Shown here: positions 25,437 through 39,108 of the stretch, in pieces
How positions within the stretch are numbered: the first letter of the stretch is position 1
Layout of the letters: each line of letters starts with the position of its first letter
Source: Nitrosovibrio sp. Nv4
GTDB lineage: Bacteria > Pseudomonadota > Alphaproteobacteria > Acetobacterales > Acetobacteraceae
Assembly (NCBI GenBank): GCA_943330455.2
Contig: CALQHT020000020.1
Coordinates: 1-39,108, forward strand
DNA: 39,108 nucleotides
Reading direction: 5' to 3'
Notes under the pieces: model-generated
What the model was told of the DNA's origin: nothing
What the model saw: only the letters and a program-made list of their open reading frames with translations
Databases searched by the model: none
Position numbers and translations under genes: made by a program

Positions 25437-26168
25437 TCAGCGTGTCCCCTCGTGGGCCCGTTCGTTCAAGGTTCGGCGATCGCGCAGTTCGATCCCAGTA
25501 CGGTGGATTGCCAGGGTCCCATCGCGTTTCATCTGGGCCAGGATTCGGCAGATGGTCTCCACCGTCAGGCCCAGATAATCAGCCATATCGGCCCGGTTCA
25601 TCGGCAACTCCAGGATCGCTCGGCCGCCAGCGCCGCGGCGCGCATCCATGTCCAGCAAGAAGGAGGCGATGCGTTCGGTGGCTGTCTTCCGGCCCAGCAT
25701 CAGCAACTGAGCCCGGGCCACGCGCAGATTCGTCAGCGCAAACTCCCGCAGGCGCCGGGTCAGTCCCAGGTGACTTTCCGCCAGGGCCTCCACCATGCGG
25801 CGCGGATAACGGCGCATGGTGACGTCGGTGACAGCCTCGGCGCCGAAGTCGAATGTGTCCATGTCGTCCAACCCGAAATGATCCCCGGGCAGGAAAAAGG
25901 CCCCCACCTGTCTGCGACCGTCTTCCAGCAATTTCACCGTGCGCACGCAACCGCTCACAACCCGATAGCAATATTGCGCATCATCGCCCTCGGCATGAAT
26001 TTCAGCCTCGCGGTGCAGATGGACCGTGGAGCCGAACTGCTCCAACAAATCCAAGGCATCGGGCGCATGGGCCCGGACATTCGACACGGTTCCGGACATA
26101 GCGCGGGGCACGGCTGCGTCCCGGCTGGCGACCGATGCGATCCCTGTAGAGTGGGTATACCCGTGCAT
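25437..26168 (-). CDS. Crp/Fnr-family regulator, FixK-like
   Basis: A 243-residue Crp/Fnr regulator. The cyclic-nucleotide-like sensor domain (about 40-155) has FixK-type blocks VVSGCVRTVKLLEDGRRQVG and FFLPGDHFGLD. The winged helix (about 155-235) has NRADMADYLGLTVETICRIL. Glu204 and Arg208 match the FNR residues that read TTGAT half-sites, while the FNR Ser212 position is Cys207. The N-terminal FNR cysteine cluster is absent, so direct Fe-S oxygen sensing is unlikely. The start at 26168 has GGGAGA upstream; a longer frame to 26198 does not. It is divergent from the FixJ-like gene, and FixJ-driven transcription is a reasonable inference. Confidence 0.9.
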   Translation of the reverse strand: MHGYTHSTGIASVASRDAAVPRAMSGTVSNVRAHAPDALDLLEQFGSTVHLHREAEIHAEGDDAQYCYRVVSGCVRTVKLLEDGRRQVGAFFLPGDHFGLDDMDTFDFGAEAVTDVTMRRYPRRMVEALAESHLGLTRRLREFALTNLRVARAQLLMLGRKTATERIASFLLDMDARRGAGGRAILELPMNRADMADYLGLTVETICRILAQMKRDGTLAIHRTGIELRDRRTLNERAHEGTR

Positions 26169-26286
26169 GGCTGTCTCCCTTGCGCTTTGCGCTTTCACAC
26201 AGCTATGTCGCTCGCAGCCGTCGCGAAATGCGGTTGAAGCCGTACGGGATGCTACGTATGTGCTGCGAAGTGGGGAGCAGTCAGGC

Positions 26287-36488: not shown

Positions 36489-38327
36489 CTACTCGGGCAG
36501 GCCGCCGAGGCGCAGGCGTTGGGCGAATTCATCCCGCAGGGCGCCCCGCAACGGGGTATTTTTGCGGAATTTGGACACGCGGAAGTCCGGGTCCATTTCC
36601 AGCATTTGTTGGGCGAATTCCCGCGCCTCATCAAGGCGTCCCAACACGACCAGACTGGCGATCAGGGTCCGCAGATTGGAGGTCTGCGTGCCGTTATGGG
36701 CGGCGGACAGGCGGCCCCAACTGGCGGCTTCCTCGAAATTGCCGTTGATATAGTGCGCTTGCGACAGCACGTGCTCGTGCCAGTAGCAATCCGGCCCGAT
36801 CGGCGACAACCGCACCGCCTGCTGGGCTCGGACCAGCGCGGTCTCCGCATCGCCCATGAAACCGCAGGTCAGGCTGCTGAAACTCCAGGCCCAGGCGCAG
36901 CTTGGTCCGGAGGCCAGGGCCCGTTCCTGGAATTCGGTCGCGGTCCGGTAGGCCTTTTTCAGATAGGACTGGGTATGGCCGTAGACCGCGAGCGCCAGCG
37001 CGTCGTTGCCATCCCGCTCAATCGCCGCCAGCGCCGAAACCGCGGCGAGGCGCGCATCGGCTTGCGGATCGTCGGACCAGCCTTGGCCGATACAGGTGAC
37101 GTGCCAATAGGCGGTATGGCAATGCGCCGGTCCGAAGGTCGGCTCGATCTCCGTGGCCTGGCGCAACAGGTCCCGCGCCTTGAAGAACGAGGCCCGATCG
37201 GTCCGGTAAATCAGATCCAGCGCCTGCAAGGTCAGATCATAGGCGGTCAGGCTGTCCGGACGCAGGCGGCCGATCCGCAGCAACTCCCGCTCCAACACCT
37301 GCGGCGCGACGGCGGTCGCCACTTGCAGGGCGATCCGATCCTGCAGGTCGAACAGGTCCGCCATGCCACCATCGAACCGCTCCGCCCAGATCACCCGGGC
37401 GGTTTCGGCTTCGTTCAGTTCGACCGAAATCCGAAGCCGATCGCGGGAACGGCGGACGCTGCCATGCAGAACATAGCGGACGTCCAGGTCATGTCGGATG
37501 CGCCGCAAATCGACCGGCAGACGGGCGAACCCCAATGTGGCGCTGCGGGAAACGACGAGAAGGTCCTTCAGACCGCCGAGGATGCGGATGATATCGTCCA
37601 CGATTCCTTGGGAGAAATAGTCCCCTTCCTCATCGTCCTGCATCGTGCGGAACGGCAGCACGGCCAGGGATGCACGCCGATCCGTGGTGACGGCCGGCGG
37701 GACCGCGGGTCGAGCCTTTACGATGGGGGGGGTGCCACCCCAGCTCTGGCATTCTTCCGCCGAGATCGAGAAGACGACCACCGGTTCGCGCAGGTTCTTC
37801 AGTTGTGGCTCGCCGATCCTGCTGAAATTCGCCGTGACGGCCGTGCTGACCTGATCGTAGACCGCTTCGGAGAGAAAAATACTCCCTGGGGTCGCGATTT
37901 GCTCCAGCCGAGCCGCGATGTTGACGGCATTGCCGCCGGTATGGCCGCGTTGGACCAGGACTTCCCCCGCGTTGATGCCGATGCGGTATTCGATCCGCCG
38001 ATCCGCCGGCAGGGCGGCCGATCGCCTCGCGGCGTCGCTTTGCACACGGAGCGCACATCGCAGCGCTTCGACCGCGCTGGGGAATTCGGCCATCAGCCCG
38101 TCGCCGGCGAATGAGAACACGCTGCCCTGGGACTTTTCGATCTCCTGGACCAGCCTGTCCATTTCCACGCCGACGCGGCTATGGGTGGCTTCCTCATCGT
38201 CGTTCATCAAGGCGCTGTACCCCTTGATGTCAGCCGCGAGTATGGCCGCAAGTCGACGACTGACCGACCCTGATCCAGGCGATCCTTCAAGACTCGACGG
38301 TTCCGCGTCCCCTTGGAGAATGTCCAT
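36489..38327 (-). CDS. Class III adenylate/guanylate cyclase with TolB-like and TPR domains
   Basis: A 612-residue protein. The cyclase domain (about 22-195) has metal ligands Asp33 in LAADIKGYSAL and Asp76 in SFAGDGLMAEF and the transition-state region GGNAVNIAARLEQIA. A FlgO/TolB-like segment follows (about 225-360; LAVLPFRTMQDDEEGDYFSQG in part, VLHGSVRRSRDRLRISVEL). The rest (about 370-590) is TPR-like helical repeats. No membrane segment is seen, so it is likely cytoplasmic. It probably makes cAMP. Its upstream region is shared with the repeat-protein gene and holds two CRP-type sites, which suggests that its product controls that gene or its own. Start at 38327 with only a weak ribosome binding site. 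Confidence 0.9.
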   Translation of the reverse strand: MDILQGDAEPSSLEGSPGSGSVSRRLAAILAADIKGYSALMNDDEEATHSRVGVEMDRLVQEIEKSQGSVFSFAGDGLMAEFPSAVEALRCALRVQSDAARRSAALPADRRIEYRIGINAGEVLVQRGHTGGNAVNIAARLEQIATPGSIFLSEAVYDQVSTAVTANFSRIGEPQLKNLREPVVVFSISAEECQSWGGTPPIVKARPAVPPAVTTDRRASLAVLPFRTMQDDEEGDYFSQGIVDDIIRILGGLKDLLVVSRSATLGFARLPVDLRRIRHDLDVRYVLHGSVRRSRDRLRISVELNEAETARVIWAERFDGGMADLFDLQDRIALQVATAVAPQVLERELLRIGRLRPDSLTAYDLTLQALDLIYRTDRASFFKARDLLRQATEIEPTFGPAHCHTAYWHVTCIGQGWSDDPQADARLAAVSALAAIERDGNDALALAVYGHTQSYLKKAYRTATEFQERALASGPSCAWAWSFSSLTCGFMGDAETALVRAQQAVRLSPIGPDCYWHEHVLSQAHYINGNFEEAASWGRLSAAHNGTQTSNLRTLIASLVVLGRLDEAREFAQQMLEMDPDFRVSKFRKNTPLRGALRDEFAQRLRLGGLPE

Positions 38328-38584: not shown

Positions 38585-38600
38585 TGTGATCCGCGTCACA
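38585..38600. promoter_or_regulatory. CRP-type site 1 (distal)
   Basis: TGTGA-TCCGCG-TCACA, a perfect match to the cAMP-CRP consensus half-sites. Centre 38592.5. It lies 265 bases upstream of the cyclase start and 212 bases upstream of the repeat gene start, so it could serve either gene. Confidence 0.8.
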
Positions 38601-38716: not shown

Positions 38717-38732
38717 TGTGAAGTAAATCACA
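38717..38732 (+). promoter_or_regulatory. CRP-type site 2 (promoter-proximal)
   Basis: TGTGA-AGTAAA-TCACA, perfect half-sites, centre 38724.5. A -10-like TAGCCT at 38754-38759 would place transcription start near 38766, which is 41.5 bases from the site centre, the classical position for activation by CRP of a class II promoter. This makes the repeat-protein gene the likely target. Confidence 0.82.
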
Positions 38733-38804
38733 TCCAGAGTGAGAGATACGCCCTAGCCTCCGCCCATCGCCGAACAGCAAGTGTCGGTCTTGGAGGATCA
38801 CAAA

Positions 38805-39108
38805 ATGAAAATCTCCCTCGCTCCCATCAGCATTGTCGACAACGGCGCCGTCAAGCTCGGTTCCGGGAATATCCAGGACATGCGCGTTGCGCTGCCGACC
38901 CGCGCCATCGCTGACAAGGGCGCCGTCAAGCTCGGTTCCGGGAATATCCAGGACATGCGCATCGCGCTGCCGACCCGCGCCATCGCCGACAAGGGCGCCG
39001 TCAAGCTTGGTTCGGGCAACATCCAGGACATGCGCGTCGCGCTGCCGACCCGCGCCATCGCCGACAAGGGCGCCGTCAAGCTTGGTTCGGGCAACATCCA
39101 GGACATGC
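38805..39108 (+). CDS. Tandem 25-residue repeat protein (partial, runs off the window)
   Basis: An open frame of 101 codons without stop to the window end, with GGAGG ideally placed before ATG (TTGGAGGATCACAAA). After MKISLAPISI-V the protein is a chain of 25-residue units beginning D(K/N)GAVKLGSGNIQ and ending ALPTRAIA: units at 38838-38912, 38913-38987, 38988-39062, and a fourth from 39063. Units differ by one Lys/Asn and one Val/Ile change; other DNA differences are synonymous. No cysteine, signal peptide or membrane segment is seen. The alternating hydrophobic pattern would suit beta-strands, for example a solenoid or adhesin-like fibre, but I recognise no family. The CRP-type site upstream suggests cAMP control. 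Confidence 0.85.
   Translation, partial: MKISLAPISIVDNGAVKLGSGNIQDMRVALPTRAIADKGAVKLGSGNIQDMRIALPTRAIADKGAVKLGSGNIQDMRVALPTRAIADKGAVKLGSGNIQDM
38838..39108 (+). repeat. 75-bp coding tandem repeat array
   Basis: Three full 75-bp units and 46 bases of a fourth, continuing past the window. Units 1 and 2 share CTCGGTTCCGGGAAT while units 3 and 4 share CTTGGTTCGGGCAAC, so the array looks like two duplicated pairs, or a gradient of recent duplication. The units are directly adjacent with no spacer. Confidence 0.95.

Follow-up and report, generated by a model that had tools for sequence, protein, structure and literature searches.

Multi-core RiPP precursors, among them those of cyanobactins and graspetides, are typically encoded by small genes of near-identical cores placed just ahead of the gene for a matched partner, and a transporter gene or a peptidase gene may be found nearby. 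Proteins of the TldD/PmbA family, for example, mature microcin B17, a known RiPP. Repeated peptide modules also serve other purposes in bacteria, as with the repeat linkers that gather Rubisco, and peptides can be bound by the TPRs of RRNPP pheromone receptors. The locus described here lies at the right edge of a 39,108-nucleotide stretch of DNA, referred to as the window, and shares the layout of multi-core RiPP systems: near-identical cores are encoded in a small gene that has the matched partner gene immediately behind it, and a transporter gene or, in one clade, a gene for a TldD/PmbA peptidase lies close by. It differs from them in that no leader was seen and no known modifying enzyme was identified.

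The partner belongs to DUF6065 (PF19541), a family that to our knowledge has no known activity, and its predicted fold resembles that of dUTPases. These enzymes are trimers whose catalytic motifs are PRSG, GxIDxDY, and a C-terminal GxGSTG; we know of no dUTPase-fold enzyme that modifies peptides. A repeat peptide with a matched DUF6065 partner, often near a dedicated regulator, is apparently an undescribed bacterial gene pair. DUF6065, PF19541, and five core strings were unmentioned in the literature searched, the scope of which excluded supplements and most subscription journals; no match was found for precursor, repeat, and Acetobacteraceae together or for the regulator terms, and the pair was absent among the matches listed for wider topics.

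The repeat gene and its relatives

The preliminary description of the window had reported a good ribosome-binding site leading into near-identical 25-residue units in a frame that stays open to the end, and each of these points holds (Table 1). GGAGG stands ahead of the ATG, translation yields MKISLAPISIVDN and then GAVKLGSGNIQDMR(V/I)ALPTRAIADK units, and the frame is open through the last base, the fourth unit having begun at 39069. That base is also the end of contig C20, one of 470 contigs in a 6.48-Mb genome, and C20 ends within the fourth unit. The stop codon and downstream genes, which the preliminary description had proposed to seek by extension, are supplied by a second contig of the same genome, C404 (4588 bases), the end of which carries the same repeat on the minus strand. 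This contig gives the 3′ end of the repeat gene, with two further cores, the terminal residues ...GNIQDMRSA, and TGA; the TTG start of a 256-residue DUF6065 protein follows 2 nt past the stop, and an EamA transporter gene comes after the DUF6065 gene. The repeat gene has at least six cores if C20 and C404 abut, the true number being left uncounted because the assembly broke inside the array.

Table 1. Features of the window at and around the tandem-repeat gene
Feature	Position	Strand	Remarks
CRP/FNR-family protein	25437..26198	-	One of 8 PF13545 matches in the genome, 5 of them over the cut-off
Divergent regulator, adenylate/guanylate cyclase domain and TPRs	36489..38327	-	
CRP-type box TGTGA-N6-TCACA, perfect, distal	38585..38600	.	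Half-sites kept in sister L045, spacer changed
CRP-type box TGTGA-N6-TCACA, perfect, proximal	38717..38732	.	In a block almost unchanged in the sister
Ribosome-binding site GGAGG	38792..38796	+	Kept in sister species
Tandem-repeat gene, 5′ part	38805..39108	+	13-residue N-terminus, three full 25-residue units, fourth begun
Repeat unit 1 (GAVKLGSGNIQDMRVALPTRAIADK)	38844..38918	+	Coordinates counted from the ATG
Repeat unit 2	38919..38993	+	
Repeat unit 3	38994..39068	+	

A sister genome of the same genus (G030) carries an intact 79-residue, three-core repeat gene on a single contig, which appears to equal that of locus L045 (its record bears the label of an Asaia bogorensis MAG). The order there is regulator, repeat gene, DUF6065, EamA, and the gene order in the window's genome is inferred from it; the two DUF6065 proteins are 96% identical. 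Because the sister has the locus on one contig, the repeat is not merely an artefact of assembly, and the refutation that the preliminary description had foreseen on that ground failed. The edge of the window captures the beginning of a genuine gene, whose product is a small protein of near-identical repeats. In the sister species, a short imperfect tandem repeat was also read from the translation just 3′ of DUF6065 (L005:611-736); it was not seen in the DUF6065 copy of the window's genome.

Relatives were collected by searching an alignment of five partner proteins against 84,980 species genomes. The search yielded 257 encoding stretches, the best 80 of which were kept, and these together with the loci of further relatives gave 100 loci once recognised duplicates had been removed (L005, L009, L127, L128, L133, and L136, and the doubly retrieved entries L002, L006, and L011-L014, all taken out before counting). 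L003, the contig of which starts inside the array, and L045 were both retained. The loci are not independent, since near relatives remain in the set, and repeat ORFs without a partner are mostly missed because all loci were found via the partner or the window's repeat. In 67 of 89 loci a strongly self-repeating ORF (at least 9 of 12) precedes the subfamily gene, compared with 20 of 525 other genes from these stretches, which rules out upstream repeats by chance; the remaining 11 of the 100 loci had less than 350 nt upstream. A threshold of at least 7 of 12 is unspecific (77 of 89 loci versus 134 of 525 background genes) and is therefore not relied on.

When ORFs are taken by core motif and repeat, 77 of the 100 subfamily loci have one with at least two core matches upstream of DUF6065, a set different from the 77 that passed the looser threshold. 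Together these ORFs contain 383 core matches, with 2 to 19 in each. The family core is about (ADxG)KVRLGxxxPxL, or V-[RK]-x-G-x-x-x-P-x-[LF] with ADxG usually before it, and is separated by variable spacers; its weighted consensus is A-D(0.84)-A-G-K-V(0.86)-R(0.74)-L-G-G-x-A-P(0.59)-x-L, in which the Gly was prescribed by the pattern used for searching. The window's version is VKLGSGNIQ, present once per unit. Across the 77 ORFs the core varies less than the spacer, the best self-repeat period is 9 to 26 residues in 72 and 38 to 48 in the other five, and in 64 the last core begins no more than 14 residues before the stop.

Outside this set of 77, L046, L122, and L135 have one core each, and two loci have two cores, the second being weak in L096 and separated by a masked stretch in L115. 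In Bradyrhizobium lablabi the single-core ORF (L046:1384-1541) has 52 residues and sits directly upstream of a partner that is 62% identical to that of the window's genome, the nearest outside the genus. An EamA-like ORF lies on the opposite strand beyond the DUF6065 gene of this locus. Matches in other families of the class had a repeat ORF in four of four cases, one of which is the same locus as L102, and a Rhizobium plasmid carries three VHIANKSPxF cores, then DUF6065, then an MFS transporter gene overlapping by 4 nt. No core was found in any search at L060, L076, L079, and L131, or by reading also at L059, L077, and L111, and L065, L107, and L114 have a degenerate core only (E 1.6-2.4); L059, L076, L077, and L111 form a clade with no core detected.

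Neighbouring units of 68 related arrays differ at codon positions 1, 2, and 3 in 381, 299, and 1230 cases, respectively (5101 codon pairs), and position 3 holds most mismatches in 65 of the 68 arrays. This pattern indicates that the repeats are translated and under purifying selection, and a chance ORF is ruled out by it. With its ribosome-binding site and this codon-position pattern, the repeat gene is a short translated gene, as a RiPP precursor gene would be. NCBIfam and Pfam searches with 47 repeat relatives returned scattered matches of one to three members only, judged to be chance, and membership of a known repeat family was rejected, as the preliminary description had anticipated in assigning the repeat to none. 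Its remark that cysteines are lacking is true of the window's protein but does not extend to the family, since Cys occurs in 28 of the 77 related ORFs as called. On reading, no signal peptide was evident in the 13-residue N-terminus, and no leader was evident in the repeat peptides.

The DUF6065 partner

The preliminary description had proposed that the genes to the right would show whether a secretion or modification system accompanies the repeat. They were informative: the gene that adjoins the repeat gene codes for a DUF6065 protein and not for a secretion system. The partner matches PF19541 with 50 bits against a cut-off of 26.6, best at profile positions 77-166 of 236, and two partner proteins tested against NCBIfam gave no match. 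Its subfamily carries the repeat ORFs, whereas 26 canonical PF19541 loci (among them L025, with almost no upstream sequence) had no core match better than E 0.36.

An AlphaFold2 model of the partner, made with 95 sequences, has a mean pLDDT of 92.1, and the best 50 Foldseek and best 50 VIA-align matches of the model are all dUTPases. The best match, 3ecy_A, aligns over 119 of 119 target residues with a Z of 11.5, an rmsd of 3.2, and 15% identity; the Foldseek TM-score is 0.76 by target length and 0.38 by partner length because the dUTPase covers about half of the partner. A dUTPase-like fold is confidently predicted from this model. Compared by eye with the dUTPase of the same genome (L150), the partner has TG, PG, and Arg at the same spacing, but it reads GxxExD where dUTPases have GxIDxD, with Glu161 at the place of the catalytic Asp, and neither PRSG nor the C-terminal GxGSTG was seen by eye against 19 dUTPases. 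Profile comparison with dUTPase by hhalign was insignificant (17 columns, E 0.062, probability 0.9%), and a Pfam scan of the partner did not return PF00692 at E ≤ 1. The partner is best described as a predicted dUTPase-fold protein and not as a dUTPase, sharing the predicted fold and part of the motif spacing with PF00692 and differing in its 256-residue length and catalytic motifs. Residues E157, G158, E161, and G167 are invariant among 95 sequences, with R142, N146, D163, and W165 nearly so, and a pocket may therefore be kept. Canonical DUF6065 domains occur in unusually long open frames of 569-642 aa at L039, L040, L041, and L043, and those of L040 and L043 read as fusions with a hydroxylase domain of the Cupin_8/JmjC type, a hint that peptides or proteins may be substrates in the wider family.

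Core types follow the partner tree. On a tree of 95 partner proteins built by a quick method, the distribution of 16 core types among 73 labelled rows takes 21 changes to explain. The lowest number possible is 15; with labels shuffled the mean was 46.1, and in 200 shuffles the number never fell to 21. The window's genome alone has three pairs (window/C404, C87, and C8), with different cores and in different clades. Neighbouring genes that are co-inherited also give such congruence, so it supports a stable pair and is not proof of binding. A match to DUF6065 of either subfamily (E ≤ 0.001) is present in 144 of the 397 genomes from the window's family, and the subfamily at E ≤ 1e-30 in 5 of 385 genomes drawn from the class and 1 of 398 from the phylum, the window's own genome being counted in both. 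Four plasmid records match, two of them over most of the query, and plasmid relatives are annotated as DUF6065; no match was found in phages. The pair has so far been found mainly in Acetobacteraceae and other Alphaproteobacteria.

Neighbouring genes and regulators

Neighbouring genes were called by a simple script, and 35 co-directional downstream genes were scanned (34 of the 51 listed from the loci, and the Rhizobium plasmid gene). They include nine GDSL-type lipases, six EamA, three MFS, and two cation efflux genes, and one TauE gene. In 44 of the 95 loci with room, the first 400 nt downstream contain no gene on the same strand. No known RiPP modifying enzyme was recognised in these 35 genes or among 25 of the 56 families listed for 37 neighbour-cluster representatives. 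One of the 37 representatives matched ThiF (E1-like, E 1.2e-82), and a PALP gene, threonine-dehydratase-like, adjoins the pair in L047, L168, L169, L171, and others (a cluster of 9 loci). A TldD/PmbA-family metallopeptidase gene lies ahead of the repeat gene on the same strand in eight loci (L048, L052, L058, L061, L084, L089, L094, and L120), ending 735-1292 nt before DUF6065; the call was made by Pfam for L089:3342-5162 and by clustering for the others. Since this family matures microcin B17, its presence favours the cores being substrates. Those of the eight loci present in the tree share one clade (L094 is outside the tree), and with GCS2 and UbiA beyond DUF6065 in related loci the arrangement may be housekeeping synteny.

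The C-terminal part of the window's divergent regulator is homologous to that of the BTAD/TPR regulators beside related loci. Regulators sharing this C-terminal part are found near 40 of the 55 loci flanked by 2.5 kb or more on each side (62 of 100 overall), a frequency that is partly self-fulfilling because the HMMs were built from the neighbours themselves, and for which the eight homologues in the window's genome, itself included, are the sole baseline. They lie upstream on the opposite strand in 31 cases, downstream on the opposite strand in 17, and on the same strand downstream in 7 and upstream in 7. Seven sampled neighbours gave TPR matches in all seven, BTAD in five, weak Trans_reg_C in five, and weak TolB_N in two, the Trans_reg_C and TolB_N matches all being below Pfam cut-offs. 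They thereby recall regulators of the BTAD/SARP type, whereas the window's copy has a cyclase domain in place of BTAD. A TPR protein encoded near a peptide gene, as in RRNPP-like systems, is thus the situation at those 40 loci.

Both perfect TGTGA-N6-TCACA boxes of the window, where 0.01 would be expected, sit in the 477 nt that separate the cyclase gene from the repeat gene. Only three perfect boxes exist in the whole assembly, the third being at C30:25721, and among 166 loci a perfect box is found only in the copies of the window and its sister. The third box (G000:C30:25721-25736, L174:3022-3037) lies just upstream of an ORF read as nitroreductase-like. Two conserved boxes in the cyclase-repeat gap make control of the operon by cAMP-CRP likely in the window's species.

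Possible functions of the pair

The explanation preferred here, to which we give a probability of roughly 45%, is that the cores are multi-copy substrates of the DUF6065 partner and give rise to a small peptide-derived product. The short core of each unit would be recognised by the DUF6065-subfamily protein encoded next door, which would bind and most likely modify the cores. Small peptide-derived products would then be set free, a step that the neighbouring TldD/PmbA peptidase may perform in one clade, and some lineages would export them through the adjoining EamA, MFS, or other transporter. Copy number would set the dose, and one core could suffice. In the window's species the operon would be read divergently from the cyclase-TPR regulator and probably switched by cAMP-CRP. 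Self-repeat ORFs at 67 of 89 loci and core ORFs at 77 of 100, with no core detected at the 26 canonical loci, the congruence of cores and partners, the predicted fold and conserved residues of the partner, the transporters, and TldD/PmbA in eight loci all speak for cores as substrates; against it stand the lack of a known activity for DUF6065 and of an evident leader, the low TM-score by partner length, the minority of loci with transporters and the 44 of 95 loci without a close downstream gene on the same strand, the restriction of TldD/PmbA to one clade, the clade without a detected core, and the fact that congruence could be plain co-inheritance. More tentatively, the whole could form an undescribed peptide system, with precursors of one to many cores, a dUTPase-fold partner that binds or modifies peptides, and a small product whose synthesis would be under the gate of dedicated TPR regulators, here a local cyclase acting via CRP boxes.

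Alternatives assign the peptide to other tasks. Were the cores signals read by the neighbouring BTAD-TPR or cyclase-TPR regulator, with DUF6065 as a maturation or carrier protein, the regulator's presence at 40 of 55 well-flanked loci in four arrangements, yet with only eight homologues in the window's genome, would be explained, as would TPR matches in the window's copy and all seven sampled neighbours; RRNPP receptors offer a loose parallel. We consider such signalling unlikely, as regulators of this kind also control ordinary biosynthetic operons, and 15 of the 55 loci, including those of Sneathiella and Bradyrhizobium jicamae, are without one, which weighs against an obligatory pair of signal and receptor. 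It is similarly doubtful that the repeat is a docking scaffold, a string of linear motifs gathering many DUF6065 proteins, possibly as trimers. A short conserved core with variable spacers and no evident leader, an adjacent partner, and core-partner congruence would suit this arrangement, but the single-core ORFs of three loci, such as that of Bradyrhizobium lablabi, weigh against an obligatory scaffold, and transporter genes beside some pairs are not readily accommodated by it.

The predicted fold, together with the similarity by eye of TG..PG..R and GxxExD spacing to the genome's dUTPase, could mean that DUF6065, like the dUTPases to which it would be related, works on nucleotides and has the repeat peptide as its inhibitor or regulator; given the insignificant profile comparison, the Glu in place of the catalytic Asp, the two unseen motifs, and the ordinary dUTPase already present in the genome, this is decidedly improbable. 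A structural protein, such as the beta-solenoid, surface fibre, or structural scaffold entertained in the preliminary description, is very improbable indeed and found no support. The AF2 model of the repeat protein does show short beta-strands at the unit period, but its mean pLDDT is 63.8 and Foldseek returned no PDB match at E ≤ 0.001 (best E 1.1); the poor model and variable unit length, with most self-repeat periods at 9-26 residues around a short core, weigh against a solenoid, and the versions with two cores or, at three loci, one core, the N-terminus without an evident signal peptide, and the DUF6065 gene in place of a secretion system next door count against a structural protein in general.

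Should the cores prove to be substrates of the partner, DUF6065 would gain a substrate, peptide biochemistry would be added to the roles of the dUTPase fold, and peptide-derived products of a new class could be found by the simple rule of a core-repeat ORF together with DUF6065. Even if the substrate reading is wrong, the pairing gives the DUF6065 family a directly testable partner.
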